DNA from: Butyrivibrio proteoclasticus B316
GTDB lineage: Bacteria; Bacillota; Clostridia; Lachnospirales; Lachnospiraceae
Direction: 5' to 3'
Assembly: GCF_000145035.1 (NCBI RefSeq)
Contig: NC_014389.1
Coordinates: 124,001 to 188,000, forward strand
Length of the DNA: 64,000 nt
A model generated the notes under the pieces. The model worked only from the letters and a program-made list of their open reading frames with translations, did not search any database and was not told where the DNA came from. This document shows, piece by piece, positions 3,712 to 26,257 of the stretch; the stretch's first letter is position 1; each line of letters begins with the position of its first letter. Made by a program: the position numbers and the translations under genes.

Positions 3712-5107
3712 CTTTTTTTCTCCTTATTTTGAATCGGTGTAAAACCATGCCATTTGCTTCTGTATATCCATCTTCTACGGTTATTTCGTATCCATTTTCC
3801 TCGCAATAGGTTACTGCAGCAATATTGGCAAGAAGTTCTTTTTTGCAGGAAAGCGGAAGCTGCGAACTATCAAGCTCGCTTTTCCCTTTCATTTGTTCAT
3901 CCAGATATAGCTTCATGCGTCTCTTGGAAAACTGGTTATAAGCTTGTTTTTTGAGTTCAGAAATTGCTTCTTCCTTATCCTGTTCAGTAAGCACCTCTAT
4001 ATCTGTAGTAATAGGCTTTTTAATAGCTCTGCTCTTTCGGAAGGGATATAGTGACGCTGTATCTATATACTCATTCTTATCAAACCTGTACAGATTTATC
4101 ATCTCATCTGGAAGAACATCAAGAAGGTCTCCCTCGTCAATACTTACCCTGAGCATTTTTAGCACCTGTTCAACATTCCCTTGAGCATCTTTACCGCTAT
4201 TGCATATGAAACGGATTCTTCCAATTGCAATATGAATATGTGTATTGATCTTGTGCTTGATATCGCGCATAATGCGATCATAATCTTCATTAAGAAATTT
4301 CTTAGTGTTATCTACCATATCAATAATCATTGTTTCAGCTTCATCTTCAGTTATGTTTTCCTCGATAGCACAGCCATAGATTAAAAGTTCATGTATTTCA
4401 GGATCATTTATCATTTCATTTAATTTTGCGCGTATATAGCTGCGGTACATATGGATATTCTGTTGTTTGGTAAGACGAGCGTATTCTCTAATAAATTCAC
4501 CGTCGCAGTATTCAAGAAGGTGGTTTGTTAGCGTTTCAAGCGATGCCTCCCGTGTCAGTTCTTCTATCTTTTTACGGATAAATGTAGATAGTCTTTTTAA
4601 TGATTTAGATAATGCTTTGGAATTGTTATAAACGGATTTTATAGCATTTACATATGGGTCAGCTCTCCACTGTTCAGGATTCATCAATGTGTTATAAATA
4701 TTGTAAATGTAAGAAGAGTACTCAACTTTTTCAGGCTGTTCCAGAGTAATTAAAAATTCAGCGAGCGCAATCCCTGCTTCTGTCATCACAATATATTTTT
4801 CATATGTACTATCATCAGTTTCTTCTATTAGCCACCCGCAGTCCTCATCAGTAAATTTTCGAATTATGCTGTTTGCAACATCGGTGATTTTCTCATCAGA
4901 GTTTTCTTCCGAAAAGCTCAGATTATTTTCAAAAATATAACTTGACAAAGCATCTCGAAGCTGCTTACGGCTAATTCGGTAAGAAACCTCCATGTCGTAT
5001 TGCGAATATATCTCGAGAAGACAACTGGCATTATTCTTATAATCGCTACCACTCGATAACAGATTAAAAAATCCTGGCGGTATTCGGTTAAATACATTCG
5101 GCGCCAT
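3701..5107 (-). CDS. jetA: JetA-like (MukF/kleisin-type) Wadjet subunit
   Basis: A 468-residue, helix-rich protein, first gene of the jetABC operon. Its opening (MAPNVFNRIPPGFFNLLSSG, residues 1-20) resembles the JetA variants of Clostridia that carry DUF5716, in which an N-terminal winged helix is followed by long helices (residues 150-330) and a C-terminal region that docks on the ATPase. A Shine-Dalgarno AAAGGGG precedes the ATG at 5107. In Wadjet systems JetA acts as kleisin and recruits JetB and JetC. Which Wadjet type this belongs to cannot be settled without a profile search. Confidence 0.75.
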   Translation of the reverse strand: MAPNVFNRIPPGFFNLLSSGSDYKNNASCLLEIYSQYDMEVSYRISRKQLRDALSSYIFENNLSFSEENSDEKITDVANSIIRKFTDEDCGWLIEETDDSTYEKYIVMTEAGIALAEFLITLEQPEKVEYSSYIYNIYNTLMNPEQWRADPYVNAIKSVYNNSKALSKSLKRLSTFIRKKIEELTREASLETLTNHLLEYCDGEFIREYARLTKQQNIHMYRSYIRAKLNEMINDPEIHELLIYGCAIEENITEDEAETMIIDMVDNTKKFLNEDYDRIMRDIKHKINTHIHIAIGRIRFICNSGKDAQGNVEQVLKMLRVSIDEGDLLDVLPDEMINLYRFDKNEYIDTASLYPFRKSRAIKKPITTDIEVLTEQDKEEAISELKKQAYNQFSKRRMKLYLDEQMKGKSELDSSQLPLSCKKELLANIAAVTYCEENGYEITVEDGYTEANGMVLHRFKIRRKKDGV

Positions 5108-8879: not shown

Positions 8880-9641
8880 TCATCCATCCATTTGCTTAAT
8901 GTATCTGTAAAAGCTGTCTCTGCTTATTTTGCATACTCTCATACAGTCTGTTGCAGAAAGCGGGCCACCATATTTCTTGTACAGCTTTTTTATCTTCTTT
9001 TTGGAACTGGTTTCCTTTTTAGTGCTTATATATGAGCCCTGCTTTCTTCCTATCTGCGCTCCATTTATCCTTGCTATCTTAAGGCCTTCAGATGTTCTTT
9101 GTGATAATATGTCCCTTTCAAACTGAGCCTCGTCAAATACTCTGTATACCTGAAGTTTGGCAAGTTCTTGCATGTATCTGTTGATAGCTTTTACTATACA
9201 GGATATGAGCTCTTTTTCTGCGCTTGGAAGGTGTTCTGTATTTATGCTTATGCTTCTACTTGCTGCTACTTTAAAAGTCTGCGTGTCAACCTGTGGTTGC
9301 TTGATAAAATGAAGAGCTACTCCTTTATCATAAAGAGACATCCATGCAAGAAAGCCCTCTTCTTTTGAACGCCCCATTCTTGACAGTTCATCCATATAGA
9401 TATCCGTGACCTTCCCTGCATCAACCTTTTTCATTAGCTTAAGCCAGCCTGGTCTTTTCATGGTCATACCGGAAACATTATCTTCTATCACGATCCCTTC
9501 GGGGCATATTTTTCTTATGTCGGATATCTGCCTTCTGGTACGCTGTTCTTTTGTACTTACCCTTACGTAGATATAATGGGTACATATTTGGTTGGTAGAT
9601 GATTGTCCGTCTTTAAACTCTTTTTGTATCTTTGCTCCCAT
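8880..9641 (-). CDS. Small serine recombinase, module 1 copy A
   Basis: A 253-residue resolvase/invertase-type serine recombinase. The catalytic motif YVRVSTKEQ places the nucleophile at Ser29. The second conserved block is RPGWLKLMKKV...DIYMDELSRMGRS (about residues 62-93). A C-terminal helix-turn-helix follows (GPLSATDCMRVCKISRDSFYRYIKQM). It is longer than Hin/Gin (about 190 aa) because of a spacer between catalytic and DNA-binding parts. The start at 9641 lies inside the end of copy B (79-bp overlap); the N-terminal 20 residues before the fold are atypical, so translation might begin later. It lies next to the cassette array and is the likely enzyme, with copy B, for cassette shuffling. 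Confidence 0.85.
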   Translation of the reverse strand: MGAKIQKEFKDGQSSTNQICTHYIYVRVSTKEQRTRRQISDIRKICPEGIVIEDNVSGMTMKRPGWLKLMKKVDAGKVTDIYMDELSRMGRSKEEGFLAWMSLYDKGVALHFIKQPQVDTQTFKVAASRSISINTEHLPSAEKELISCIVKAINRYMQELAKLQVYRVFDEAQFERDILSQRTSEGLKIARINGAQIGRKQGSYISTKKETSSKKKIKKLYKKYGGPLSATDCMRVCKISRDSFYRYIKQMDG

Positions 9642-10459
9642 ATAACGTTTGCTTCTTCGTAATACTTTTCTGAATCAGTAAGCCTTACATTGAAGGGCTT
9701 TTTATCGGCATATTTTGCCTGTTCTTTGGTCAGTATTCCCTGCTCGACTTTGATATTATCGATATATTTCCGCGTTGTGGGTATCGTTGCTCCGATTATC
9801 CTTGCCACACCCGCAGTGTTATAATAGCCTCCAAATCCTCGGTAATATTTGATGATAAGGGGCATGGACATATATTCCAATTTCGACTTATAATGAGCGC
9901 CCTTTTCTCTTCCGAATTTTACTCCTCTTTTCTTGGCTTCTGCGATCCCACTCTTTACCCTCATAGAAAGGTTGTTGGATTCATCTTCGGCATGCTTAAA
10001 TGCCATATATATCTGTTTTTCAATAAGATCTAGTTGATAATCTTCTATGGCCTTCATTATCGCATTTATCATTCTGTCTGCACAGTTATCCCCGCTTTTT
10101 ATTTTTATGGCTGAAATGCTGCCTTCTAATGCTTTTTGGTATACATCTGTGCTTATGTGGGAGCTTTTAATGAAATGGAGATTGATTTTCAGATCGTAAT
10201 ATAGATGTTTATAAGTGTTAAAACATTCCTTTGCTGTTCTTCCCATCCTGCTTGGCTCATCAAACCATATATCAGAGATATGTCCGCCTTCTGCACTTTG
10301 TATTATCTTATTCCACATAGGGCGATCCATAGTTCTCCCCGTACAGGTTTCTTCCACAACAAGTGCATCAGGACATCTTGAGAGAATATTAACCTTTTGT
10401 CTTGCTCCATCCTGTTGATCCGACGATACCCTTATATATGCTATCTGAAATTTCTTCAT
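9563..10459 (-). CDS. Small serine recombinase, module 1 copy B
   Basis: A 298-residue serine recombinase starting at the ATG at 10459 (MKKFQIAYIRVSSDQQ), which has AAGGAGG 9 bases upstream; the frame is open back to 10504. Ser12 in the YIRVSS motif is the predicted nucleophile. The block RPMWNKIIQSAEGG...IWFDEPSRMGR carries the conserved Arg residues. The C-terminal part has a recognition-helix-like segment (NTAGVARIIGATIPTTRKYI). It is clearly paralogous to copy A and to the module 2 enzyme, but diverged enough that the two may recognise different half-sites or act as a pair. It is transcribed away from the array. Confidence 0.85.
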   Translation of the reverse strand: MKKFQIAYIRVSSDQQDGARQKVNILSRCPDALVVEETCTGRTMDRPMWNKIIQSAEGGHISDIWFDEPSRMGRTAKECFNTYKHLYYDLKINLHFIKSSHISTDVYQKALEGSISAIKIKSGDNCADRMINAIMKAIEDYQLDLIEKQIYMAFKHAEDESNNLSMRVKSGIAEAKKRGVKFGREKGAHYKSKLEYMSMPLIIKYYRGFGGYYNTAGVARIIGATIPTTRKYIDNIKVEQGILTKEQAKYADKKPFNVRLTDSEKYYEEANVIWEQRYKKSLKTDNHLPTKYVPIIST

Positions 10460-10810
10460 AACATACGCCCTCCTTGTCGTGCCAGATTGTAGAGAGAAAT
10501 TCATGGACTGTCAAATGGACTAGCTTGTCTTTTATTTTTGTGAAGCTGACGTATATTTCATGTCATTTATTCTTTACATGTCATGCTGTGGGTTAAATAT
10601 GCCAACGTAATATTTATCAGCATTTAAGCGGCTTTTGCAGGATTTGTATGTTTTAGAAATCGTTAGGTTTTATTTGTACGATTTAGAGGGAAGTTTAGTA
10701 AACGTTTTCGCTTATTTACATCAAGTGTTTCTCACTTTATTTATCCATTTTATTTTTTTTGTACAGAAATTATTACTGAGAAGATCAAGCGCTTGTTCTG
10801 TACAAGGGTT
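10460..10810. other. Gene-poor flank between recombinases and first cassette
   Basis: No convincing gene. The recombinase promoter must lie here but I see no clear one. At 10676-10692 the sequence GTACGATTTAGAGGG resembles the module 1 junction core (GTATGATTTA..GAGG) and may be an old site that has lost its cassette. A weak frame downstream of it (to 10823) shows no tip-like features. Confidence 0.4.
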
Positions 10811-10829
10811 TATATGGTTTTAAGGAGGT
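10811..10829 (+). repeat. Module 1 cassette junction s1
   Basis: TATATGGTTTTAAGGAGGT: matches the junction pattern (core TATG, then TTTTA and GGAGG) directly before cassette 1. Confidence 0.5.
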
Positions 10830-11126
10830 AAGGGTTACGACATAACCTGGTCTGCATTTACATGTTATGGTGGCGTTGGTCAGTCTGCCGGACAAGGTTT
10901 TACTATTACCGATAGTAATGTTAACGGCGTAATACTAAAAGTATCTTATTCGACTGCGTGGGGTATCGGATCATGGAATTATTCTAACTGTACAGCACAG
11001 TGGAGTGGCGGCAACGGAACATACACTGTCAAGCTTACGCCAACAAATAGATCAAAAGAGTTCCGCTGGTACATGAATTACACAACCGCGTATTACATTT
11101 CTTCTATCACTAGTGAAGCTTTTTAA
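10824..11126 (+). CDS. Silent start-less tip cassette 1 (module 1)
   Basis: Open for 100 codons from GGA GGT AAG at the junction to TAA, with no ATG or ribosome site at its head (an in-frame TAA lies directly before). The product begins GGKGYDITWSAFTCYGG and contains GSWNYSNCTAQWSGG and a C-terminal YYISSITSEAF. It is related to cassette 8 (WGYSNCT, ISSISAN). It could be read only after joining to the stalk gene. Its stop overlaps the convergent cassette 2. Confidence 0.75.
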   Translation, partial: GGKGYDITWSAFTCYGGVGQSAGQGFTITDSNVNGVILKVSYSTAWGIGSWNYSNCTAQWSGGNGTYTVKLTPTNRSKEFRWYMNYTTAYYISSITSEAF

Positions 11127-11400
11127 TCATCAGACTCCAGTATTACTGCATTATTTGTCCATAATGCGTTAAATGTAATCGTGGTCGAGCTTGCCTTCAA
11201 TGTCCATGTGTAGCAGCGGTAAGGATTACTCATATGTGTGTTTGGACTTGATATATAAACCCATTCTGCACCTGGCGTACATGACACAGAATCATAATAT
11301 CCGGCTTGTTCCGCGCACACATATATTTCCTCGGAGTCGCATTGATTATTTGATTATTCACTATTTGGTGAACAAACTGATGAAATCCTTTGATTTCTCG
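11123..11400 (-). pseudogene. Frame-broken tip cassette 2 (module 1)
   Basis: The tip-like frame ends ...CTPGAEWVYISSPNTHMSNP...NNAVILESDD and stops at 11123. Reading back towards junction s2, this frame meets a TAA about 45 bases after the junction and is one base out of phase with the CGA codon used by the other cassettes. It therefore looks like a decayed cassette, although its last 66 codons are intact. Confidence 0.6.
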
Positions 11401-11423
11401 CTAAATCATACGGTTTTATGGAG
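11397..11423. repeat. Module 1 junction s2, shared by cassettes 2 and 3
   Basis: CTCG, CTAAATCATACGG and TTTTATGGAG in series; quasi-palindromic with TA at the centre (27 bp). Cassette 2 reads leftwards and cassette 3 rightwards from it. Confidence 0.65.
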
Positions 11424-11686
11424 GCGGGGGTTTGTCCGCAGTATCATTTGGCTTTCCTGGTCGTTCTTCAGGTAACAGTTTCACTCAAACATTTACAATC
11501 AGCAGCACGGCAATAAATGCAACGGTAAGATGCTCTTATTCCGCCCCGAATGGCGGCTCGGTAAGGGTGAATGGAACAAATATGTCTAATGGTGAAACAG
11601 TAAGCTTGAATAATATCAAGCAGATATCCTTGAGTGGGACTGCTTACGATGGCGGAATTAGCGGAAGTCTATCAATAACTTACTAG
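11420..11686 (+). CDS. Silent start-less tip cassette 3 (module 1)
   Basis: Open for 88 codons from GGA GGC GGG GGT at junction s2. The product GGGGLSAVSFGFPGRSSG... is rich in Ser/Thr/Asn strands (FTISSTAINATVRCSYSAPN) and ends SGSLSITY. No ribosome site or ATG is present at its start. It forms a convergent pair with cassette 4. Confidence 0.72.
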   Translation, partial: GGGGLSAVSFGFPGRSSGNSFTQTFTISSTAINATVRCSYSAPNGGSVRVNGTNMSNGETVSLNNIKQISLSGTAYDGGISGSLSITY

Positions 11687-11713
11687 GGCTTACGGCATTG
11701 GTATTGTTTATAG

Positions 11714-12046
11714 TTATTCAATCAAATATGCCCTAACATTTAATTTATAATTATTAGTTTTTGTATAAGTGACGGGGTCGCAGTTAGGATAATCACCGCC
11801 TAGCGTGGTTATTGCAAGAGTATAATAAGCGGTTAAAATGCCCGTGCTATTATCATAAGATTTTGTTATTGATATAGCACCCCTTCCCATTTCCACTTCT
11901 CCAACCCCATTACCAACAATAGGCCCATTTCTATTTCCAGTATTAGTGGCAAGACCTATAATAAAATCATTTGCAGTAAGTGACCGATATCCTGTATGCG
12001 ATGACACATCAAATGACTGGCCCACGCCTAAATCAATGACAGCTCG
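11714..12046 (-). CDS. Silent start-less tip cassette 4 (module 1)
   Basis: Reads leftwards from junction s3 with first codon CGA (RAVIDLGVGQSFDVSSH...), 110 codons to TAA. It contains the recurring tip signature LTANDFIIGL and KSYDNSTGILTAYYTL, matching cassette 7 (FTEDNFIIEI, KSYNSNTGTLTARYNL). An ATG happens to fall in the junction just before CGA, but no ribosome site precedes it. Confidence 0.75.
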   Translation of the reverse strand, partial: RAVIDLGVGQSFDVSSHTGYRSLTANDFIIGLATNTGNRNGPIVGNGVGEVEMGRGAISITKSYDNSTGILTAYYTLAITTLGGDYPNCDPVTYTKTNNYKLNVRAYLIE

Positions 12047-12070
12047 CATAAATCATACGAATTTAACGAG
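12043..12070. repeat. Module 1 junction s3 (28 bp), exact inverted copy of s7
   Basis: Starts CTCGCATAAATCATACG and ends AATTTAACGAG. It is the exact reverse complement of 13244-13271. The arms form an imperfect dyad with TA at the exact centre. Both flanks begin with a CGA codon, so each side opens a cassette. Confidence 0.9.
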
Positions 12071-12246
12071 AAGGAACATGTTCGGTGAACCTGCACACTA
12101 CTTTGAGTGAAGCTGGCGGTGCTGCGCATGTCACATCAACCATTTCAATAACAAGCCAAGGAAAAACTCTTCTCTCATTTAATGTGCACTATGACAATGA
12201 ATCAGTTGCGTATTACAACGCATCAAGAAGTTTTACAGTTAACTAA
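12067..12246 (+). CDS. Silent start-less tip cassette 5 (module 1)
   Basis: Open for 59 codons from CGA GAA GGA ACA at s3 to TAA, without any ATG. The product REGTCSVNLHTTLSEAGG ends YYNASRSFTVN. It is the shortest cassette. The complete absence of a start codon is strong evidence that this class of segment is translated only as a fusion. Confidence 0.72.
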   Translation, partial: REGTCSVNLHTTLSEAGGAAHVTSTISITSQGKTLLSFNVHYDNESVAYYNASRSFTVN

Positions 12247-12276
12247 ATGCGAATATTTGTATGTTTTAGACGAGGA
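12247..12276. repeat. Module 1 junction s4
   Basis: ATGCGAATATTTGTATG then TTTTAGACGAGG: the GTATG-TTTTA-CGAGG core matches the other module 1 junctions; the left arm is diverged. Confidence 0.55.
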
Positions 12277-12555
12277 ACAAGCTACGAAGTCATTTGTATA
12301 GGCTATTATGCCCTTAGTGGAACTTTCGATGTAAGGTCTAAAGTTGCAGATTATGCAAATGCAACACACGATAACTTCTTTTGTACAGTTACTGGTATGG
12401 CTGTTCGCAACATAAGCTATGGCAATCCAACTCCATCTTGGACATACAACGCATCATCAGGATCATTGTCAGTTAGTGCAGGTTGGTCAGGAGAGTATCC
12501 TCTATATTGTAGCGGATACATTTATTACATATCAGAGCCATTACCACCAGCTTAA
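12271..12555 (+). CDS. Silent tip cassette 6 (module 1), related to a module 2 cassette
   Basis: Reads from CGA GGA ACA AGC (RGTSYEVICIGYYALSG) for 94 codons. It includes FDVRSKVADYANATHDNFFC, NISYGNPTPSWTYNASSG and the ending YYISEPLPPA. The same order of motifs is found in the first module 2 cassette at 18741-19019 and, in part, at the end of the expressed tip of the module 1 stalk gene (YYASVPLP). An in-frame ATG lies upstream inside the junction but has no ribosome site. Confidence 0.78.
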   Translation, partial: RGTSYEVICIGYYALSGTFDVRSKVADYANATHDNFFCTVTGMAVRNISYGNPTPSWTYNASSGSLSVSAGWSGEYPLYCSGYIYYISEPLPPA

Positions 12556-12578
12556 TTTGCGTAAGATTTGTACGAGGT
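12552..12578. repeat. Module 1 junction s5
   Basis: TTAATTTGCGTAAGATTTGT then ACGAGGT; GATTTGTACGAGG matches the right arm of the junction set. Confidence 0.5.
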
Positions 12579-12890
12579 GACGCAAAAGTTATAGATTTAG
12601 GAACTGGTAGCACATTTGGTGTGGCGGGTTATGATGGATATGAATCATTTACGGAAGACAATTTCATCATTGAAATACCAAGCAATACTAGCATAGGTTC
12701 AGGTGGTGGCGTATATATTTCGTCTGTCGCCGCCTCTGCAAGTTGCAGCAAGACAAAATCATATAATAGTAATACTGGCACATTAACTGCTAGGTATAAC
12801 TTGTGGGTTTCAAACGGAAGTGATTATTACGGCTCGAATAGCGCACGTTCTACCAACATTGATGTTCATGCTTACTTAGTTATAAAATAA
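12573..12890 (+). CDS. Silent start-less tip cassette 7 (module 1)
   Basis: Open for 105 codons from CGA GGT GAC GCA (RGDAKVIDLGTGSTFGVAG). It contains FTEDNFIIEIPS and SYNSNTGTLTARYNL and ends VHAYLVIK, a close parallel to cassette 4. Convergent with cassette 8. Confidence 0.75.
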   Translation, partial: RGDAKVIDLGTGSTFGVAGYDGYESFTEDNFIIEIPSNTSIGSGGGVYISSVAASASCSKTKSYNSNTGTLTARYNLWVSNGSDYYGSNSARSTNIDVHAYLVIK

Positions 12891-12911
12891 AATCAGAAAT
12901 CAAAAACGAGC

Positions 12912-13247
12912 TTAATTTGCTGATATTGAGCTGATTGTTGCGAGATAACCGTTTCCTTTATCTGAGTCGCCATTAGTCCCAATAGATATTCCAAAATTAG
13001 ATTCAGGGTCTGTGACATTGACAACCACTGTCCATGACGTAGCATATGGACTTGGAGCTGACTTTACTGTGCAATTAGAATATCCCCAATTACCTCTACC
13101 GTATAAACCATTAGCAGTTCCTGTTAATGTCACAGTTTTCTTTGAAGGATCTGTAAGTTTCATTGTAAGTCCTATTGTTCCCGCACCACCCCAAATAGAA
13201 CCTGTATATGACATTCCAAGAATACTTACTCCGCTGCCAGCGCCTCG
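12912..13247 (-). CDS. Silent start-less tip cassette 8 (module 1)
   Basis: Reads leftwards from s7 with CGA GGC GCT GGC (RGAGSGVSILGMSYTGSIWG), 111 codons. It contains GNWGYSNCTVKSAPSP and ends LATISSISAN, related to cassette 1. A TAA lies directly before the CGA codon, so it cannot be read from outside without rearrangement. Confidence 0.75.
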   Translation of the reverse strand, partial: RGAGSGVSILGMSYTGSIWGGAGTIGLTMKLTDPSKKTVTLTGTANGLYGRGNWGYSNCTVKSAPSPYATSWTVVVNVTDPESNFGISIGTNGDSDKGNGYLATISSISAN

Positions 13248-13271
13248 TTAAATTCGTATGATTTATGCGAG
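13244..13271. repeat. Module 1 junction s7 (28 bp), exact inverted copy of s3
   Basis: Starts CTCGTTAAATTCGTATG and ends ATTTATGCGAG; exact reverse complement of 12043-12070. Recombination between the two would invert about 1.2 kb carrying cassettes 5 to 8. Confidence 0.9.
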
Positions 13272-13543
13272 GAGGCAAAATAGTACAGATTAGCAATGGT
13301 TACAACATGAAAACCAATTATCCTGATAAATATGCTTCCTTGACTAGCAAAAATTTCTTTCTTGTTACTGGAACAATAACGGGATGGAGTGACGGCTCAC
13401 ATTATGCATACACTTCCTACCATGTGTCTTACAACGCGACAACCGGGATTGTTACTGTTGGCGCATCTTCAAGGACAACGGGTGGAAGTGCCCAGGCATC
13501 TGCCAGCTATACTGTTTATTACACCGAAACTCCACTGCCATAA
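13268..13543 (+). CDS. Silent tip cassette 9 (module 1), closest to the expressed tip
   Basis: Reads CGA GGA GGC AAA ATA GTA (RGGKIVQISNGYN...) for 91 codons and ends YTVYYTETPLP. It aligns well with the current tip of the stalk gene: GAEIVLI against GGKIVQI, LTNKNFFFV against LTSKNFFLV, SYNSSTGAISV against SYNATTGIVTV, and PLP at both ends. This colinearity defines where constant and variable parts join. Confidence 0.8.
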   Translation, partial: RGGKIVQISNGYNMKTNYPDKYASLTSKNFFLVTGTITGWSDGSHYAYTSYHVSYNATTGIVTVGASSRTTGGSAQASASYTVYYTETPLP

Positions 13544-13575
13544 ACTGTGGTTGATGAATTATTCTATAAGAATAA

Positions 13576-13887
13576 TTAGCTTCTAACGATATAAAGCTTA
13601 AGGAAAGAGCTGTCAGGCCCAACAGTGGCACTCCAACTATTGGCACGAATGTATACGGAGACAACGCCTGATGCTTTATCATAAGAACACGACATATTCA
13701 GACTTACATAAGCTGTATCGGAAGGTAATTGTAATCCTGAGTATGAACTGGTCTTTGAATACGAACCCATAACGAAAGCAAAATTATTAACTGTCAATGA
13801 TGCATAATCGCTTTGAGATTTGATATTCCAAGAAGCTGTGTAATTACTATATGAGGTAGGCGCTCCAATGTATGTTGCAGAAGCTCC
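13576..13887 (-). CDS. Silent tip cassette 10 (module 1)
   Basis: Reads leftwards from s8 with GGA GCT TCT GCA (GASATYIGAPTSYSNY), 103 codons. It shows the tip signature LTVNNFAFVMG and SCSYDKASGVVSVYI and ends LKLYIVRS. An ATG lies in the junction, without a ribosome site. Confidence 0.75.
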   Translation of the reverse strand, partial: GASATYIGAPTSYSNYTASWNIKSQSDYASLTVNNFAFVMGSYSKTSSYSGLQLPSDTAYVSLNMSCSYDKASGVVSVYIRANSWSATVGPDSSFLKLYIVRS

Positions 13888-13911
13888 CATAAATCATACG
13901 GTTTTACTGAG
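13884..13911. repeat. Module 1 junction s8 (28 bp), shared by cassettes 10 and 11
   Basis: CTCCCATAAATCATACGG then TTTTACTGAG; same length and same TA centre as s3/s7, with several arm changes. Confidence 0.75.
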
Positions 13912-14204
13912 ACGGTTTTATTAAACCGGGCTACTACTTTCAGAATGGTCGTTTTATAGCATATAGCAAAGGTAGTACTATCAGTGGAAATCCTCAGATC
14001 ATTATGAATGTTTCTGAATATAAAAACTTCAGTTACTCGATAAATGAGGGTGGTGAAGGTTTTGGTTCTTTGTTTTATTTGATAAAGAACGGCAGCATTA
14101 TTTCTTCTGCACGTTCAGGAGCAAATGTAAATGCCGATTATTTGGTATATTCATGGTCTGCCACTGGAAATAGCGGCGGACACGGTTATCTTGTAGTTAG
14201 ATAA
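13911..14204 (+). CDS. Silent start-less tip cassette 11 (module 1)
   Basis: Open for 97 codons from GAC GGT TTT ATT (DGFIKPGYYFQNGRFIAYSK), directly after a TGA in the junction. It ends GHGYLVVR. It has no ATG near the start. Less like the LT.NFF class than its neighbours; the SYSINEGGEGFG stretch recalls module 2 cassette G (FTYTQGGGQGSH). Confidence 0.72.
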   Translation, partial: DGFIKPGYYFQNGRFIAYSKGSTISGNPQIIMNVSEYKNFSYSINEGGEGFGSLFYLIKNGSIISSARSGANVNADYLVYSWSATGNSGGHGYLVVR

Positions 14205-14217
14205 TCACAGGATTTAA

Positions 14218-14535
14218 TCAGTTAAGAATAACAACGATAGATAAACCTATTGATGTGCCAATCTGCGTAGATTGCCCCGCAGAAAGCGTAAGCGAACCTT
14301 TTGTGCCATATCCCGTCCAGTATATAGTGCATCCCTGAATTGCATTAAACGTGGCATAGCCTTGTTTTCCATTATGATATAAAGAACCCGTTGCGCCGTC
14401 GCTGGTACTTGTAAATCCGCTTGAATTGGCAGTGAAATTACTTTTGCCCGTGTCGAGATTATAGTATGCGCTTGAAGACCATGACTCGGAGCCATATTGT
14501 GAACAGTTAAATATAGCGTTTGCTTTCGCGCCTCC
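14218..14535 (-). CDS. Silent start-less tip cassette 12 (module 1), next to the stalk gene
   Basis: Read from GGA GGC GCG AAA (GGAKANAIFNCSQYGSESWSS) for 105 codons to TGA at 14218-14220, ending GLSIVVILN. The longer frame in another phase with an ATG at 14552 is not the coding frame. It lies immediately behind the stop of the expressed tip, on the same strand. Confidence 0.75.
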   Translation of the reverse strand, partial: GGAKANAIFNCSQYGSESWSSSAYYNLDTGKSNFTANSSGFTSTSDGATGSLYHNGKQGYATFNAIQGCTIYWTGYGTKGSLTLSAGQSTQIGTSIGLSIVVILN

Positions 14536-14556
14536 TTTAAGTCATATGCCATTGAG
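14531..14556. repeat. Module 1 junction s9, between expressed tip and cassette 12
   Basis: On the minus strand CTCAATGGCATATGACTT then AAAGGAGG. Its AATGG start recalls the AAAAATGG at the constant/variable border inside the stalk gene (near 14862-14868). Confidence 0.6.
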
Positions 14557-14558
14557 TA

Positions 14559-14846
14559 TTACGGTAATGGAACAGATGCATAATAAAGCTTACCTGCGGT
14601 TCCAGCTCCATCGCCCGGAGAGCCGTTCCCATGGACAACACTTATCGCTCCAGTGCTAGAATTATATGATATTGAAGTTGTGAAGTATTTGGTTGTTGCG
14701 TAATTGTTTCCGCCATAACCGTTAGTACATACGAAGAAAAAGTTTTTATTTGTAAGTTCTTTATAATTTGACAGCTTAGATGCTACATTCCCACTGTATG
14801 TAGGGCTCCTTTGGTCAAATGATGCAATAAGGACTATTTCCGCTCC
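14559..14846 (-). other. Currently expressed variable tip of the module 1 stalk
   Basis: Starts at the GGA codon (14844-14846) in AGT GGA GCG GAA ATA GTC, equivalent to CGA GGA GGC AAA ATA GTA of cassette 9. The border inside the gene matches the 28-bp junctions only partly, so its competence as a crossover site is uncertain. Confidence 0.7.
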
Positions 14847-16985
14847 ACTAGAACTGACACCATTTTTAACTACTGTATCAGTGTCGTAAAAGCCCGCGGG
14901 AAGCGTAATCTGGCTTCCTGCTCCCAGGACAATATCGGACAAAGTTGTTGTGCCCGAAGTAACTGCATTTACCTTAGATGTAGATTTATAAGCGCCATAT
15001 ACTTTTGCTGGGTTTTTCTTCATGGTTCCCGTGATCTTACTGCCATTAACATAAGCGGTGTAACCAGTAAGAATCTGGGCAGCAGCTGCAGTCGCATCAC
15101 TTGTAAACGTACCCTTTGTGTTAAAGATTGTTGTGCCTGCCTTTATGTTACCTGCAACGAGATTAGCATCGCCTTTAATAGTTTGAGCGCCAGATAAATA
15201 TGAACCAGCGGCAATTGTCTGGTCTGCGGTACCGGGTGTATATGTAGCAGCTCCTGTTGATTTCATAGTACCGGTGATGCCGCTACCGCTTGCGTTAGTA
15301 AATGTCTTGCCGGCAAGTACGTCTTCTGCTGTGGCTGTGCCGATCTTCGCAGCTGAGACGGCACTGTCTATGTCAGCCTGCGACTTAAAATCCACAAACT
15401 TATTGTTCTTATCAAAGTATCCGTATTTACCATTTACTTCGCCAAGACTGAATGGAACGGTTACATTGGCTCCAATGTTTGCTCCACTTCCGATGGTAAC
15501 GTTGTCTCCAACGCCCTTAACCTTGTTCTCAAGAACGCCTACTCTTGTACTAAGGTCAGTAACAGTCTCCTTAAGGGCAGAAAGTGAAGCTGTCATGGAT
15601 GTGATATTGTCTTCTGTTGTAGCAGCTGTGGTTCCACCAAGAGCTGTCACCATACCGGAAAGCATGTTGTCGAGAGTCTCAAGATCAGCTTTCTTATCAT
15701 CAATATCAGATACGGTTCCCTGAAGTTCTTCAAGGCTTTCCTTTAATGTCTCAACAACGGATGAGTCTGCCTTAGTATCTATTTCGCCCTGCATACTTTC
15801 AAGGGCAGTATTTATTACAACTACCTCTGCCTCTGCAGCAGAGAGTTTTTCTTTTGTTTCATTTAACTCTTCTTCAAGGGCATCTACATCCTCCTGAGAT
15901 GCCTTTGCAGCATCAGAGGTCTTGAGCTCATTAATTTCTTCCTGAAGCTTTCCTTCAGATTCTTCATTTTTCTGTTTTACAAGAGCGAGCTGCTGCTGAA
16001 GGGATGTAATCTTCTCTTTAAGTCCTGTAATCTCCCCTTCTTTTTTCTGCATATCTGTCTTGAGATTGTTTATTTTCTGACTATTATCGTAATTGTCACC
16101 CTGCAAATTCTCAATCTGCGCATTAAGGGTTGTTATCTGTCCCTGGATACTTCCTTTGAGCGTATCAAGAGAAGCGGTCATTGAAGCAATCTCAGAGCGA
16201 AGTGCAGCAATGACTTCTGCGTCGGCTGATGCGGCTTCACCATTCTCTTTAATAAGATTATTGATAGTCTCACTCTGTTTGTTATATCTCTCAAGAAGGT
16301 CATTATACTTTGCCTGAAGGTCAGATACGCTGGATGTGGAAGCGTAATCTGTAGTAGCAGATGTTGTATCTTTCTGAAGAGATGCGCCTTCGCTCTTAAT
16401 AGCTGCAACAGTATTCTTAAGTTCCGTTACATCAGCCTCTACTGCAGCAATTCTCTTTTCGAGTGCTTCAATATTGCCAAGTACAGCCTTTGAAAGAGAA
16501 GTCTCTCCTGCCGCCTCTTTATTCTTTGAATCAAGATCTGCTTCAATGAGAGCCGCAACAGACTTTGATAAAACCCTTGTCTGCTGGTCAGTAAGACTAT
16601 ATGAACTTATCATCTTGGTAAGCTTTGTTTCGAGCTCCTTGATCTCAGCGTCAGTTACAATACCTTCGTATGAACCATTGATGAGATTTGCAGTAACAAT
16701 CTCAGCAGCACGCTGTGCAATATCTGCTGGTACTCCGTCAGATACAATAATGCCACTCTGTGTATCAGTATCCTTGGCAAGATAATCCTCGATATACTGT
16801 TTTGTAATGACTTCAATCTCATCCTGAGTTTCAACTACCCGGTCTTTTGCCAAAGCAGTCTGAGCAGCTTCGTTGCTTATAGCATTATAAGCAGCTGACC
16901 CAGCTGTTCCGCCGATACTTCCAAGCATAAGTGCTGCTGCCACCATAATAATAAGTGTTCTCTTAGAAACGTCCTTCTTTTTCAT
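14559..16985 (-). CDS. Membrane-anchored coiled-coil stalk protein with switchable tip, module 1
   Basis: An 808-residue surface protein. The ATG at 16985 (MKKKDVSKRTLIIMVAA) is preferred over 17021 because GGAAGG lies upstream. Residues about 10-33 form a signal anchor. Residues about 150-470 are a long Lys/Glu/Leu heptad region (coiled coil). A block at about 510-540 reads GANIGANVTVPFSLGEVNG. QTI-type repeats follow (TADQTIAAGSYLSGAQTIKG), then GAGSQITLPAGFYDTDTVVKNGV. The last 95 residues (14559-14846, from GAEIVLIASF) are the variable tip, colinear with silent cassette 9. Up to VVKNGV it is strongly similar to the module 2 protein; beyond that the two differ completely. It is likely an adhesin or conjugation-specificity factor. 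R1 lies upstream. Confidence 0.88.
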   Translation of the reverse strand: MKKKDVSKRTLIIMVAAALMLGSIGGTAGSAAYNAISNEAAQTALAKDRVVETQDEIEVITKQYIEDYLAKDTDTQSGIIVSDGVPADIAQRAAEIVTANLINGSYEGIVTDAEIKELETKLTKMISSYSLTDQQTRVLSKSVAALIEADLDSKNKEAAGETSLSKAVLGNIEALEKRIAAVEADVTELKNTVAAIKSEGASLQKDTTSATTDYASTSSVSDLQAKYNDLLERYNKQSETINNLIKENGEAASADAEVIAALRSEIASMTASLDTLKGSIQGQITTLNAQIENLQGDNYDNSQKINNLKTDMQKKEGEITGLKEKITSLQQQLALVKQKNEESEGKLQEEINELKTSDAAKASQEDVDALEEELNETKEKLSAAEAEVVVINTALESMQGEIDTKADSSVVETLKESLEELQGTVSDIDDKKADLETLDNMLSGMVTALGGTTAATTEDNITSMTASLSALKETVTDLSTRVGVLENKVKGVGDNVTIGSGANIGANVTVPFSLGEVNGKYGYFDKNNKFVDFKSQADIDSAVSAAKIGTATAEDVLAGKTFTNASGSGITGTMKSTGAATYTPGTADQTIAAGSYLSGAQTIKGDANLVAGNIKAGTTIFNTKGTFTSDATAAAAQILTGYTAYVNGSKITGTMKKNPAKVYGAYKSTSKVNAVTSGTTTLSDIVLGAGSQITLPAGFYDTDTVVKNGVSSSGAEIVLIASFDQRSPTYSGNVASKLSNYKELTNKNFFFVCTNGYGGNNYATTKYFTTSISYNSSTGAISVVHGNGSPGDGAGTAGKLYYASVPLP

Positions 16986-17154
16986 CGGTAAGTTGCCTTC
17001 CTTCATATAAATCAAATTCATAAGTTGCGTATATAGTGCGTTTCAAACGCCCGAAAGTTATTATGGAGTGGTTAGAAATTGTTTTTATCGTGGCAATTAT
17101 TCTGCACATGACCTATAAAGCCTTATACCTGTGCAGAAAATATTGGCATATAAA

Positions 17155-17182: not shown

Positions 17183-17242
17183 GTTAATTTCCTGCAATAC
17201 GGTAAATGTGTTGCTAGAATAGTCTGTAATTATAAATATCGT

Positions 17243-17562
17243 GCGAGAAAACCCCTCCCGATGAAGTCGGTTGTGGGGATGGAACGCCTTTACGCGAACG
17301 GCTGTTCGTGATAAAATAAGTCAATCGGAACCTTGAAAACTGTATATATGAGGTTGTGCCATGAATCTAATAAACTAAGAACCTGTGGCACGTAAAATAT
17401 ACAAGGTGTTTAGTTCCCAAGCGCCAAAAGCGCATATAACAACATTTTTAAGTATGCCGAAGGGGTTCCGCCCTAACGGAGTAGCGGCACCGTGAACGTG
17501 CCTTACTATATCACTTAGATATTGTAAAAACCATTTACGATAACATCGGTGGTGGTAGTTCA
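17243..17562 (-). repeat. Repeat element R1 (~320 bp), candidate structured RNA
   Basis: Limits GCGAGAAAACCCC and GGTAGTTCA. Terminal hairpins CCGAT/GTCGG and CGAT/ATCG at the two ends. Internal stems include GCGAACGGCTGTTCG and GTGCCATG...TGGCAC. It lies upstream of the module 1 stalk gene. Strand is given in the direction of neighbouring transcription. Confidence 0.65.
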
Positions 17563-17732
17563 TTTGATGGTCCGAAATATTATCTTTGCCTCTTTTTTGA
17601 TATACATATCATATGCCTCAGGCAAAACCGGTGTTTTATTCTGAAATATATGATATATGCGTCAATGATATGACTTTATACTTATAATTTCTGCCAGTCT
17701 AAATTTTTTTTGTTGGAAACAGGCACTTTCAA
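17563..17732. other. AT-rich spacer with a duplicated recombinase 3' end
   Basis: 17682-17716 (TTATAATTTCTGCCAGTC ... TTTGTTGG) repeats 17733-17770, which encodes the last residues of the module 2 recombinase. Read on the minus strand the outer copy still gives an open end, NKKNLDWQKL then stop. It looks like the 3' remnant of a second recombinase gene lost by deletion. Confidence 0.5.
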
Positions 17733-18584
17733 TTATAATTTTCTGCCAGTCATATTGTTTTCTTTGTTGGCCTTAATTACCTGAATGATTTTCTTTGGAT
17801 CAGCTTCTCCTCTATCTATCTTTTCTGCAATTATCTCATCATCCCATATAATGCCCTTTTCCTTATCTTCCTCTCTCATCTCATTTAGATACCGATAGAA
17901 TGTTGATTTTGTAATTTGAGCAAGCGTAAAACACTGCGTTGCGGTAAGCTCGCCTCCAAACAGTTCATAATGATTTCGTATGATACGTTTGGCTCTCTTT
18001 TGCTTCTTGGTAATAAGCTTCTGTCCAGGCTGCCGCCCGACCTTACTTCCCATGAGTTTTGCCTGTTTTAGTCCTTCTGATGTTCTTTTGGATAATAGTT
18101 CCCTCTCTTTCTGCGCATGGTCGAAAGCTAAAAATATCTGCTTTTCTGCAACTGATAGAAGGTAATCATTAAGCCCTCCGATAACTGTGTTGATAAGCTG
18201 CGCCGTTTCGCTATCCATTGAATCTGTTGATATCTCAATCTTTCTTTCAGAAGCATCACGATAGATCTTCGAGTTGATGTGAGGCTCTTTTAAAAATTCA
18301 AGCTCAATCCCAAGTGAATACAACTCTTTGTATTCGACTATGGCTTCTTCTGCATTTCGGCTAAAACGCGAGACCTCATCAAAAACAAGTTTACTCACAT
18401 TCCCCGCTCGGCACTGCCTCATCAGTTTTTTCCATTTTGGTCTGTTGTCGGTGCTTCCGGTATAGACTTCTGCTACGATAACAATATTGGGGTAGGCTGT
18501 TTTTAGATTTTCTATTTGTCTCCGTAAAGATTGTCGTTGTGTAGAGACGCGAGCGTACCCGACCACGATTTTTTCTTGTTTCAA
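17733..18584 (-). CDS. Small serine recombinase, module 2
   Basis: A 283-residue serine recombinase. The probable start is the TTG at 18584, which has AAGGAGG 9 bases upstream; the frame is open to 18602 but the TTG there lies before the ribosome site. The nucleophile is Ser14 in GYARVSTQRQ. RPKWKKLMRQCRAGNVSKLVFDEVSRFSR follows at about residues 48-75. The C-terminal helix-turn-helix reads GGELTATQCFTLAQITKSTFYRYLNEM, closely parallel to module 1 copy A. It sits directly beside the module 2 array, as in module 1. Confidence 0.87.
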   Translation of the reverse strand: MKQEKIVVGYARVSTQRQSLRRQIENLKTAYPNIVIVAEVYTGSTDNRPKWKKLMRQCRAGNVSKLVFDEVSRFSRNAEEAIVEYKELYSLGIELEFLKEPHINSKIYRDASERKIEISTDSMDSETAQLINTVIGGLNDYLLSVAEKQIFLAFDHAQKERELLSKRTSEGLKQAKLMGSKVGRQPGQKLITKKQKRAKRIIRNHYELFGGELTATQCFTLAQITKSTFYRYLNEMREEDKEKGIIWDDEIIAEKIDRGEADPKKIIQVIKANKENNMTGRKL

Positions 18585-18740
18585 ATAAACCACCTCCTTC
18601 AAAGGATTATAACAGTTTCATTTGGAGGTATTAAATAAAACAATTGGACTATGAAAATGGGAAATAAACATAATGATTTTTTATGGCGTTGAATTTTAAT
18701 AATGGAGATTTGTTTGTGAATTGCAAAAGGATGATTTTTA
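18585..18740. other. Spacer between recombinase and module 2 array
   Basis: AT-rich. It must hold the leftward recombinase promoter; no clear -35/-10 pair is seen. No gene. Confidence 0.4.
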
Positions 18741-19019
18741 CGAACTTCACAAAATATCTTTATCGGAACGTTTTCGCTAAGTAGTTCTTTTGATGTAAAG
18801 TCTAAAGTTTCTGCTTACAGAAGTGCGACACATGATAATTTCTTTTGCATAGTTACATCTATAGCTGCACATAATATTTCTTATGGTGATCCAACTCCCA
18901 CTTGGACATATGATTCCTCTACAGGGACATTAACATGTAGCGCGGGATGGGGCGGAGAATATTATCTGTATTGTAATTGCAGAGTTTATTACACTCCCGA
19001 ACCATTACCTACAACGTAA
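18741..19019 (+). CDS. Silent start-less tip cassette A (module 2)
   Basis: Reads CGA ACT TCA CAA (RTSQNIFIGTFSLSSSFDVK) for 92 codons to TAA, ending YYTPEPLPTT. It has no ATG at its head. FDVKSKVSAYRSATHDNFFC and NISYGDPTPTWTYDSSTG match module 1 cassette 6 motif by motif, showing that the two arrays have exchanged tip types although their junction sequences differ. Confidence 0.78.
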   Translation, partial: RTSQNIFIGTFSLSSSFDVKSKVSAYRSATHDNFFCIVTSIAAHNISYGDPTPTWTYDSSTGTLTCSAGWGGEYYLYCNCRVYYTPEPLPTT

Positions 19020-19021
19020 GT

Positions 19022-19040
19022 AGTATTTAAGCGAACTGCG
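19022..19040. repeat. Module 2 junction before cassette B
   Basis: AGTATTTAAGCGAACTGCG. Module 2 junctions share TATTATT-like sequence followed by (C/G)GAACT(G), quite different from module 1. Confidence 0.6.
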
Positions 19041-19364
19041 CAATATTCCACAGCTTACTATATTTATCCAAGTACTTCTAGTTCATCATTTCCAGAAATG
19101 TTAATCAACGGATACAAAGGCAAGAAGTTTGTTATTACTGCGTATACTGTGGAGGGTTATACTCTCACATATTCTCAAAACGGAACAGTGCTAACCGGAA
19201 CTTACTATGATTGTAGTTACAATAATGGGCACACTAATTATGTATATGCTCCTTCTAGCATAACTCGATTATATGTGTTCACAGGAACTATAAAAACTGA
19301 TTCGGATTCTTTTTCTTACTATAACTATGGTGGTGGCTATTGGTCACAGTTGTGGATTGAATAA
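19032..19364 (+). CDS. Silent start-less tip cassette B (module 2)
   Basis: Reads CGA ACT GCG CAA (RTAQYSTAYYIYPSTSSSSF) for 110 codons. It continues GYKGKKFVITAYTVEGYTLT and ends with an aromatic-rich YYNYGGGYWSQLWIE. No ribosome site. Confidence 0.76.
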   Translation, partial: RTAQYSTAYYIYPSTSSSSFPEMLINGYKGKKFVITAYTVEGYTLTYSQNGTVLTGTYYDCSYNNGHTNYVYAPSSITRLYVFTGTIKTDSDSFSYYNYGGGYWSQLWIE

Positions 19365-19366
19365 TT

Positions 19367-19391
19367 AAGGTATTATTCAAATGAACTGCAC
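19367..19391. repeat. Module 2 junction before cassette C
   Basis: AAGGTATTATTCAAATGAACT then GCACA; matches the junction at 21466-21480 (GGTATTATTTGTAGGAACT on the minus strand). Confidence 0.6.
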
Positions 19392-19711
19392 AAACAGGCA
19401 CAGTTACTATACCTGATCCTAATACATCAACATCTCCTGTCACTGTAAATCTTGGTTTTCAGCCTAAAGTGGTTATGTTACGCCTTGATTACTTGAATGG
19501 TGCTTATGCCATTCTTTCATATAATGCAAATCTACTACCAGGCATGTGGATACATTCTAGTTATGCGGGTGGATGGTCTGGTGGAGCAGCAAGTCTAGGT
19601 TCTGCTAGTAATACATTCACATTCAATATAACTTCTAGTGGATTTAGTATAAAAGTTACTATAGGTGGAAGTACGTACTACGGAACTTATATGGCGTTAA
19701 AAGATGTCTGA
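19385..19711 (+). CDS. Silent start-less tip cassette C (module 2), same class as expressed tip
   Basis: Reads ACT GCA CAA ACA GGC ACA (TAQTGTVTIPDPNTSTS) directly after TGA, 108 codons, ending YYGTYMALKDV. It aligns with the expressed module 2 tip: TGDTGTITF against TAQTGTVTI, VTINVGYRPSIAF against VTVNLGFQPKVVM, and GFQAKMSALSGHYQG against GFSIKVTIGGSTYYG. This fixes the junction frame. Confidence 0.78.
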   Translation, partial: TAQTGTVTIPDPNTSTSPVTVNLGFQPKVVMLRLDYLNGAYAILSYNANLLPGMWIHSSYAGGWSGGAASLGSASNTFTFNITSSGFSIKVTIGGSTYYGTYMALKDV

Positions 19712-19717
19712 TTTCAA

Positions 19718-20028
19718 CGAACTCTGACGGTTATTGATGCTTACAGGTTTTTGCGGCTCACTCTATTACAGTAGAGAACCATAGCGGATGCAAGTATCTG
19801 ATTATCTGTGGAACCTCTTTTTATTATGACACTAATGTCAATCAGATTGTTCAGAAGAATGGCAGTTATTTAACAGCAATGTATTCATTAGCGCCTGTTA
19901 AAAATAATGAAGGATGGGTTAATGGAACTGCTGTATACATAGGTGATCTAACATCAAACTCTGAAGTATTCAGCAAGAATAACAACGGTGGTCAGAACCT
20001 AATATGTGACCTTATTGTATTCCAATAA
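19718..20028 (+). pseudogene. Frameshifted tip cassette D (module 2)
   Basis: It starts with the junction CGAACTCTGACGG at 19718, but the tip-like body (GCKYLIICGTSFYYDTNVNQ ... NGGQNLICDLIVFQ, stop at 20028) is in a different phase, and the CGA frame stops soon after. Either one indel has inactivated it, or the junction phase differs. Confidence 0.6.
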
Positions 20029-20045
20029 TTTGCGTCTTATCAAAA

Positions 20046-20318
20046 CGAACTGCGTCAACGCTAGATTTTACCTTGGTTAGAGATAGCGGTTCAGGTACAT
20101 GGAACAATCAATCAGTTACGTTTTCAAATTCAGATATGGACTTTAAAACAGCAACACTTACATCTCAATCTAGTGATGCTTCTACTTTCATATTCTTGGA
20201 TGGCGCACAGTATGCGATGAGTTTGAATACACCCATTGATATTTCATCTACCACATCAATTAAACTTTTGCTTTCTGCTAAGGTTGGTAATTGGTCTGTA
20301 GTTAGGTTGGCGAAATAA
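20046..20318 (+). CDS. Silent start-less tip cassette E (module 2)
   Basis: Reads CGA ACT GCG TCA ACG (RTASTLDFTLVRDSGSGTW) for 90 codons, ending SAKVGNWSVVRLAK. Compact, Ser/Thr-rich strands. No start signal. It is the last plus-strand cassette; beyond it the orientation switches. Confidence 0.75.
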   Translation, partial: RTASTLDFTLVRDSGSGTWNNQSVTFSNSDMDFKTATLTSQSSDASTFIFLDGAQYAMSLNTPIDISSTTSIKLLLSAKVGNWSVVRLAK

Positions 20319-20515
20319 AGTATTATCTTGGGGAACAACTATTATATCGTTTGGTTCAGTTGCATATGTTCTATATCCACCAGTTGCAACTTTTTTAATT
20401 GTGTTTGTTGGTACAAACAATATTTCTAATGCTGATTTTGCATTGATTTTAAACGCTTCAGTATACGCTGGAAATATAAGTTTAAATTGATTGAATGACG
20501 GTAAGCTATCCATAA

Positions 20516-20851
20516 TCACTCAATATAAACAAAAAACGGCTTCCACCAATAAACGCTATAAGTGGAGTTATAACCACATGAAGGAAGATTATAGGTCTGT
20601 CCTGCGGAAAGGCTTGTGTTTACTGATATTACCGCGCCAGAAACATTCTGATACCAACCTTTTACAGTGCAGGATTGATTTGCCGTAATAGCAAAATTGG
20701 AATTAGCAGTAACGGTAGCTTTGCCACAGGAAATACCAGATATGGTCGATATAAACATTGCTGCATTATTGACCATACTTCCAATTACTACACGACCGTT
20801 CATGACATCGCCTGTAGACTTGGCTATCACTCCGACATCCGACAATGTTCC
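20516..20851 (-). CDS. Silent start-less tip cassette F (module 2)
   Basis: Reads GGA ACA TTG TCG GAT (GTLSDVGVIAKSTGDVMNG) for 111 codons, ending YSVYWWKPFFVYIE. A TGA lies directly before the GGA. The junction (TTGAGGAACATTG) departs a little from the GAACT consensus. The 190 bp behind its stop hold a weak leftward frame with no junction. Confidence 0.7.
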   Translation of the reverse strand, partial: GTLSDVGVIAKSTGDVMNGRVVIGSMVNNAAMFISTISGISCGKATVTANSNFAITANQSCTVKGWYQNVSGAVISVNTSLSAGQTYNLPSCGYNSTYSVYWWKPFFVYIE

Positions 20852-20859
20852 TCAAAAAA

Positions 20860-21180: not shown

Positions 21181-21195
21181 CTCTTATAATACTAT
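21171..21195. repeat. Module 2 junction between cassettes G and H
   Basis: On the minus strand AGTATTATAAGAGCGAACTG. It overlaps the last codons of cassette H. Confidence 0.6.
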
Positions 21196-21471: not shown

Positions 21472-21484
21472 TACAAATAATACC

Positions 21485-24208: not shown

Positions 24209-24238
24209 TACTTTGTCACCTTCCTTTTATAAAATTTA

Positions 24239-24557: not shown

Positions 24558-24662
24558 TAAAAACAAAATATTGATTGTTTCATTAAGCTGTTTGAATAAC
24601 AAACAAAGTTGTTATAGTAAAATTATAGAAATGCCTGATGAAATAATAGTTTTCTGCACATA

Positions 24663-26208: not shown

Positions 26209-26257
26209 ACTAACTATATTTAGTTTTTTATCTGAATATTCAATTCCAAGGGATTTA

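Follow-up and report, generated by a model that had tools for sequence, protein, structure and literature searches.

The stretch of DNA analysed here, called the window below, is 64,000 nucleotides long and covers bases 124,001-188,000 of a 361,399-base contig (NC_014389.1; C3 in our numbering) of the rumen bacterium Butyrivibrio proteoclasticus B316, whose genome comprises 4,404,886 bases. We take this replicon to be the megaplasmid pCY360 and use that name for the contig. The genes of pCY360 are counted in published expression data, and the accessible part of that report does not name the genes described here (PMC6344614). The window holds two neighbouring arrays of apparently silent C-terminal cassettes, array 1 (10824-14846) and array 2 (18741-21826), each accompanied by a long gene that we call the stalk and by genes for serine recombinases. 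Array 1 has 12 cassettes on both strands, 11 of them in the reading phase of the stalk. Its features are as follows, in window positions; open codons are counted from the core, the short sequence at which a cassette begins.

8880-9641, minus strand: RecB, serine recombinase of 253 residues (Pfam Resolvase, E 1.4e-22); overlaps the end of RecA; 36-38% identical to RecC of array 2
9563-10504, minus strand: RecA, serine recombinase of 313 residues (Pfam Resolvase, E 1.1e-18); 30% identical to RecC
10824-11126, plus strand: cassette 1; core GA at 10825; 100 codons open; in-frame TAA directly upstream
11123-11353, minus strand: cassette 2; decayed; reading frame one base out of phase (by eye), weak core, site rank 1947
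11420-11686, plus strand: cassette 3; core 11421; 88 codons open
11714-12046, minus strand: cassette 4; core 12045; 110 codons open; homologue of a cassette in viral contig L035 (phmmer E 1.2e-10)
12067-12246, plus strand: cassette 5; core 12068; 59 codons open; site within a 28-nucleotide perfect inverted repeat
12271-12555, plus strand: cassette 6; core 12272; 94 codons open; homologue of array 2 cassette 1 (E 4e-38)
12573-12890, plus strand: cassette 7; core 12574; 105 codons open; homologue of a cassette in viral contig L035 (E 1.4e-11)
12912-13247, minus strand: cassette 8; core 13246; 111 codons open; TAA directly upstream
13268-13543, plus strand: cassette 9; core 13269; 91 codons open; homologue of the expressed tip of stalk 1 (E 6.8e-9)
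13576-13887, minus strand: cassette 10; core 13886; 103 codons open
13908-14204, plus strand: cassette 11; core 13909; own codon TGA; 98 codons open only with the stalk's G
14218-14535, minus strand: cassette 12; core 14534; 105 codons open
14844-14845, minus strand: junction core GA of stalk 1; the boundary in the alignment of stalk 1 with stalk 3
14559-17021, minus strand: stalk gene 1; N-terminal hydrophobic segment, predicted coiled coil, linker repeats, junction, tip (14559-14846)

A preliminary description, made from the sequence alone, had reported array 1, and the 12 coding segments do lie on both strands where it placed them, between two genes with Resolvase domains and a gene with a predicted coiled coil. 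It had also described the last 95 codons of stalk gene 1 as colinear with cassette 9; these codons start at a cassette core and are homologous to cassette 9 (13268-13543; phmmer E 7e-9), and likewise to cassette 6 (12271-12555; phmmer E 3e-8). Two points need amending. The usable cassettes number 11, cassette 2 being out of phase and having a poor site. Eleven of the 12 are indeed open in stalk phase, for 59-111 codons from the core, but the statement that the open cassettes carry no start signal was too strong: 4 of the 11 (cores 12045-, 12272+, 13269+ and 13886-) have an in-frame ATG, GTG or TTG upstream of the core within the open frame, ribosome-binding sites being unscored. Divergent neighbours in array 1 have one common spacer of about 20 base pairs, in which two sites overlap back to back, and the inverted repeat at the site of cassette 5 recurs between cassettes 8 and 9. 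Between RecA and the array, at 10642-10687, lie two site-like half-sites without the GA core (repeat D4); a similar stretch precedes the lone cassette of a third locus (L007, about 13165-13200), and these could be regulatory binding sites.

Array 2 (17733-24208 with its enzyme and stalk), missed by the preliminary description together with the third stalk, follows the same plan, with nine cassettes, its own stalk and its own serine recombinase RecC, the best-supported enzyme of the three:

17733-18602, minus strand: RecC, serine recombinase of 289 residues (Pfam Resolvase, E 2.3e-22); likely the array 2 enzyme
18741-19019, plus strand: cassette 1; core 18742; 92 codons open
19032-19364, plus strand: cassette 2; core 19033; 110 codons open
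19382-19711, plus strand: cassette 3; core 19383; own codon TGA; 109 codons open with the stalk's G
19718-20028, plus strand: cassette 4; core 19719; defective, the fused frame stopping after 18 codons
20046-20318, plus strand: cassette 5; core 20047; 90 codons open
20332-20490, plus strand: cassette 6; core 20333; 52 codons open; revealed by the viral-only site model, in which it is the top window position
20516-20851, minus strand: cassette 7; core 20850; 111 codons open
20860-21180, minus strand: cassette 8; core 21179; 106 codons open
21184-21471, minus strand: cassette 9; core 21470; 95 codons open
21822-21825, minus strand: junction core GAAC of stalk 2; rank 4 of 127,964 in the viral-only site model
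21485-24208, minus strand: stalk gene 2; 907 residues; paralogue of stalk 1 (71% identity over query residues 4-668); tip 21485-21826

None of the nine array 2 cassettes has an in-frame ATG, GTG or TTG upstream of the core within its open frame. The third locus, about 100 kb away (C3 33.7-36.5 kb), consists of stalk 3 and a single plus-strand cassette with an array-1-type site. There is no recombinase of this family near the third stalk: a family search of C3 gave three members, all inside the window, and the same search of the B316 genome added one weak chromosomal match.

All three stalks begin with a basic N-terminus and a hydrophobic segment (best 19-residue hydropathy 1.88-1.96), and none of the three has an LPxTG motif. 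In Pfam the two stalks in the window have sub-cut-off matches only, suggesting a coiled coil, and no PilV or shufflon family appears even among these, which agrees with the earlier view that the stalk is unrelated to PilV. On sequence grounds we predict an N-terminal membrane anchor followed by a coiled-coil stalk. A public protein of 621 residues (P0001) is 99% identical to stalk 1 and has short stretches of the stalk 3 type, suggesting mosaic stalks or a chimeric assembly.

Each usable cassette opens at a site that combines a single conserved, A/T-rich half-site with a core (GA for array 1, GAAC for array 2), and the core found in the cassettes is present at the variable boundary of the stalk gene as well. 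We aligned 15 array-1-type, 10 array 2 and 15 viral sites; one array 2 row (20410-) was later judged spurious. Relative to the G of the core, the array-1-type half-site has T at -12, A at -11, G at -9 and T at -7, -6 and -5, each in 12-14 of the 15 sites, and the array 2 half-site is GTATTATTT with core GAAC. When the segments are aligned by reading phase, the first codon of the 11 array 1 cassettes is NGA with an invariant GA. In several cassettes a stop codon, TAA or TGA, immediately precedes or spans the core. In two (13908+ and 19382+) the core codon is itself TGA, and the cassette is readable only if the first base is that of the stalk; exchange would therefore have to take place at or after the G of GA. 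The boundary is sharp, stalks 1 and 3 being 96.7% identical over the 30 base pairs before the core and 43% over the 30 base pairs after it.

In stalk phase, 19 of the 21 cassettes have an open frame of 52-111 codons. When the array DNA is shuffled, a random position is open for at least 52 codons in 3.1% of cases, and the maximum per set was 4 of 20 in 300 sets. The shuffle test covered 20 cores, of which 19 are open; the decayed cassette 2 of array 1 was left out of it and is counted as a failure in the 19 of 21. The sites also stand out in the window as a whole. With a leave-one-out site model, 11 of the 12 array 1 cassette sites rank 18 or better among 127,964 window positions, and a model built from 13 viral sites alone places the nine array 2 cassette cores at ranks 1, 3, 7, 8, 10, 11, 32, 41 and 95.

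The enzymes had been called small serine recombinases, and this stands: all three contain the Pfam Resolvase domain, the nucleophilic serine and the conserved arginines of the superfamily. Y16, R18, S20, Q24, R28, R54, D75 and R79, residues of catalytic importance, are invariant across 24 aligned relatives, RecA and RecB included. All three match a PHROG family named DNA invertase. The predicted model of RecC (mean predicted local distance difference test score, pLDDT, 79; predicted template modelling score 0.52) has one 53-residue helix between its catalytic and DNA-binding parts, and the Tn3, Sin and gamma-delta recombinases are its best PDB matches. A 37-row tree separates RecC, the viral enzymes introduced below and seven metagenome proteins (support 99/98) from the Gin-type invertases, represented by Fels-2 and YP3 alongside a staphylococcal plasmid resolvase. 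A second split with the same support (99/98) unites 19 rows, in which plasmid and genome recombinases stand together with RecA and RecB, whose branches are long and whose place is unsure. The enzyme of viral contig L035 groups with the plasmid and genome side at weaker support (82/84), so that the array enzymes are not one demonstrated clade. Position makes RecA the likely enzyme of array 1, with RecB as a partner or alternative; viral relatives, position and site type together suggest that RecC likely serves array 2, and that RecA, RecB or both likely serve array 1 and, in trans, the single-cassette locus. Relatives at E <= 1e-40 occur in 24 of 396 other genomes of the family. In public proteins RecC relatives are abundant (273 at E <= 1e-60, of which the 120 listed are all at least 73% identical), and the device is therefore likely to be widespread.

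A search of IMG/VR with RecC returned eight contigs, and in seven of these the matched segment is 68-79% identical; five of the viral relatives, once aligned, are 66-77% identical. Small cassette arrays adjoin the enzyme in five of the seven (L031, L033, L034, L035 and L037), and the other two contigs (L032 and L036) are cut close upstream of the enzyme. The viral arrays near RecC relatives have the GAAC core and the same design as the plasmid arrays. In L031, L034 and L037 a short gene begins with a few residues ending in SGGT, which are the residues of the stalk 2 junction (...VPSGGT).

Two of these contigs, L036 and L037, are 98% identical over several kb and differ by an inversion: positions 1-94 of L036 match L037 7148-7241 exactly on the opposite strand, and where the two alignments meet they have the five bases GAACA in common. 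A search with 20 bases of the constant region returned L082, L083 and L084, of which L084 is the same contig as L037. L083, which by its contig name comes from the sample of L036, contains, in one orientation, a 661-base-pair segment that is 100% identical to its counterpart in L037, and at the end of the contig the far site of this segment is joined to the near flank, giving the inverted form, again with the overlap GAACA; L036 carries the reciprocal junction. The tip genes of L083 and L037 are alike from the 5' end to GGAACG, beyond which the tips differ, and L082 terminates exactly at a site. These junctions identify the predicted core as a natural breakpoint, and the contigs of a single sample include both orientations.

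We consider it very probable that serine recombinases invert the cassettes at the short core and so fuse different tips in frame to a predicted anchored coiled-coil protein. Functionally, the system is likely a shufflon whose driving serine recombinases lie outside the Hin/Gin group. Recombinase dimers would bind the half-sites and pair two cores of opposite orientation, and cutting within the core followed by rejoining would invert the DNA between them; where one of the two cores is the stalk junction, the expressed tip would change. The stalk codon would supply the base before GA and thereby make the cassettes with a TGA codon readable after exchange. For pCY360 itself we infer activity, the assignment of enzymes, surface display and function.

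Serine recombinases are capable of both inversion and excision or insertion. The arrays might then be a store in which cassettes are inserted and lost, through integron-like capture and excision at the same cores, and not mainly an inverting shufflon. Viral contigs L033 and L034 would suit a store: their recombinase proteins are identical (277/277) and their downstream DNA is 91% identical, but their cassettes differ, so that cassette content turns over faster than the enzyme. Several cassettes, moreover, stand in direct orientation, where the same recombination would delete. The sole event resolved to the base pair, however, is an inversion, found in both orientations in the contigs of one sample, and array 1 contains divergent pairs with a common spacer, as inversion needs; we regard the store as unlikely.

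Several observations weigh against inversion as the working of these arrays. In the aligned sites only the left half-site and the core are kept, and a conserved right half-site was not found. The stalk 1 junction reaches only rank 456 in the cassette-site model, perhaps because its half-site doubles as coding sequence. The viral isoforms, the sole basis for inversion, come from assembled metagenomes; the palindromic end of L083 might conceivably have arisen during assembly, yet it fits the independent contig L036. The tip switching proposed in the preliminary description gains support from inversion at the predicted core beside relatives of the array 2 enzyme in viral contigs; relatives of RecA and RecB were not found among the viral contigs, which leaves array 1 without natural-inversion support. 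B316 is represented by one assembly, in which no rearranged copy of pCY360 was seen. In the neighbourhoods inspected by eye in 13 of the 24 genomes with recombinase relatives (frames of at least 65 residues, within 3.5 kb), no array was seen beside the recombinases, which have 37-45% identity to RecC, so membership of the enzyme family does not by itself imply inversion. With 2 of the 21 cassettes broken, the arrays could be partly decaying. Finally, stalk 1 matches two PHROG families of unknown function over its linker repeats (E 5e-11 and 6e-11) and tape-measure PHROG families over its coiled coil (4e-6), which makes a phage origin of the stalk a possibility.

Some of these points would suit a graveyard, that is, silent remnants of phage tail genes that undergo at most rare homologous gene conversion, beside recombinases that are plasmid resolvases only. 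The two broken cassettes would fit it, as would enzyme relatives in genomes without visible arrays, relatives of 37-45% identity on plasmids for which no array is annotated (two of the five records lack product names), and P0001, which looks like a mosaic of stalks 1 and 3. We nevertheless find a graveyard improbable, as 19 of the 21 frames are undamaged and keep the phase, close relatedness among cassettes is rare, leaving little substrate for homologous conversion, and the closest enzymes adjoin arrays that do invert.

Cassettes are related across the arrays, as in the case of array 1 cassette 6 and array 2 cassette 1. A tip profile has eight matches in the B316 genome, all in an array or at the end of a stalk, and matches in 4 of the 396 other genomes. 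Inspection by eye placed the tip-type frames of three of these (G091, G115 and G165) close to amidase, lysozyme or holin-like genes, and showed no evident gene of that kind near those of the fourth, G458. The predicted structure of array 1 cassette 4 (pLDDT 82.8) consists mostly of strands and matches two phage proteins, uncharacterised and 110-112 residues long (E 1e-4 and 3e-4, but TM-scores 0.50 and 0.44); its comparison with the PDB gave nothing certain.

The arrays could, on this evidence, belong to a prophage or phage-plasmid and switch its phage-type tail fibre, not a bacterial surface protein. RecC relatives, the junction motif and the tip domains all occur in viral contigs and prophage-like loci, and the PHROG matches of stalk 1, to the two families of unknown function and to tape-measure families, point the same way. 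In all three stalks, however, a predicted coiled coil comes after an N-terminus that is basic and hydrophobic; a Pfam scan of ten further window proteins gave no structural phage family; and a PcfJ-like domain in the window and a coupling-protein match elsewhere on the replicon point to a plasmid. A tail fibre is in our view very improbable.

For the invertible surface protein that we favour, we infer from the place of the tips in viral tail-end-like genes and at the ends of stalks that they bind cell surfaces. Given the resemblance of the tips to domains found in tail-end proteins of viruses, the stalk protein probably offers other cells a changeable set of binding tips, and would most likely serve to recognise recipients or to let cells adhere to one another. 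Mating would agree with the location on a plasmid, the coupling-protein match on the same replicon and the precedent of PilV; relaxase and AAA_10 searches found nothing on this replicon, which makes adhesion in general equally possible. A more speculative idea, which we put forward tentatively and think rather doubtful, is that the plasmid adopted the tip switching of rumen phages, with phage-type tips set on membrane-anchored coiled-coil stalks and shuffled by two parallel serine-recombinase systems with separate cores; the plasmid would then choose the neighbours that its host binds and mates with by means of the very tips that phages use to choose their prey.

Crossover sites of the Hin/Gin type are roughly palindromic, about 26 base pairs long and composed of two half-sites, and in these systems a Fis-bound enhancer forces inversion over deletion. 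The B316 sites, in contrast, have one conserved half-site and a core of 2-4 base pairs. The nearest functional precedent is Min of p15B, which, with Cin of P1 and Gin of Mu, is described in the accessible part of PMC6109161 as a serine recombinase whose multiple inversions vary the ends of tail-fibre genes. The B316 arrays would resemble these systems in being driven by serine recombinases and in undergoing multiple inversions. They differ in their enzymes, which have 253-313 residues and fall outside the Fels-2/YP3 Gin-type group (99/98) in a tree that does not include Hin, Cin and Min, and in the target on the plasmid, a protein for which a membrane anchor and a coiled coil are predicted. 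Membership in the Hin/Gin/Cin/Min family was rejected on the tree split (99/98) and on the lack of two-half-site symmetry in the B316 sites.

The shufflon of TP114, as set out in the accessible part of PMC9045228, joins a constant N-terminus to swappable tips of 69-113 residues and acts in recipient recognition. Like R64 and TP114, the B316 system is plasmid-borne and has a constant gene and cassettes with sites in opposite orientations, in both arrays; unlike them, it has serine recombinases and a stalk without a PilV match in place of the tyrosine recombinase Rci and the minor pilin PilV. An R64-type shufflon was rejected because all three enzymes are Pfam Resolvase (serine) proteins and the two window stalks have no PilV match in Pfam. 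In the Rin shufflon of bifidobacterial prophages, a receptor-binding protein has a constant N-terminus and a C-terminal variant array behind 11-base-pair sites (PMC6109161, accessible part); Rin is a predicted tyrosine recombinase, and its site TTCCCTAACCC is unlike the B316 sites. A survey of inversions does not mention Butyrivibrio in the accessible portion of its main text (PMC5903667). If our reading is true, the arrays would add a serine-recombinase shufflon outside the Hin/Gin group, located on a Gram-positive plasmid and with two parallel specificities side by side. They would tie plasmid arrays to viruses with the same enzyme clade, junction and tip domains, and they make it testable how such an enzyme acts on a very short core without an evident second half-site.

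An element of about 330 base pairs, largely non-coding in appearance, is present in five copies of 84-92% identity, two of them upstream of stalk genes:

17230-17565, 24227-24561, 26257-26590 (inverted), 38552-38884 and 57491-57822, with a part at 61947-61983: copies of the repeat of about 330 base pairs

It matches no Rfam family and is possibly a shared leader or promoter element. Tandem paralogues at 57818-59611 and 59737-61758, which have a 92% identical stretch of 1.37 kb and no Pfam family, contain repeats of the VTLPAGYYxxxVTISNGV type that resemble, by eye, the stalk linker just before the junction (ITLPAGFYDTDTVVKNGV). At 3701-5107 the window encodes JetA of the Wadjet plasmid-defence system (Pfam E 9e-110), here itself on a plasmid. 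A PARP-domain protein is encoded at 45026-46555 (Pfam E 5e-20), with a small neighbour that is alike by eye at 47017-47520, both of them on a plasmid.

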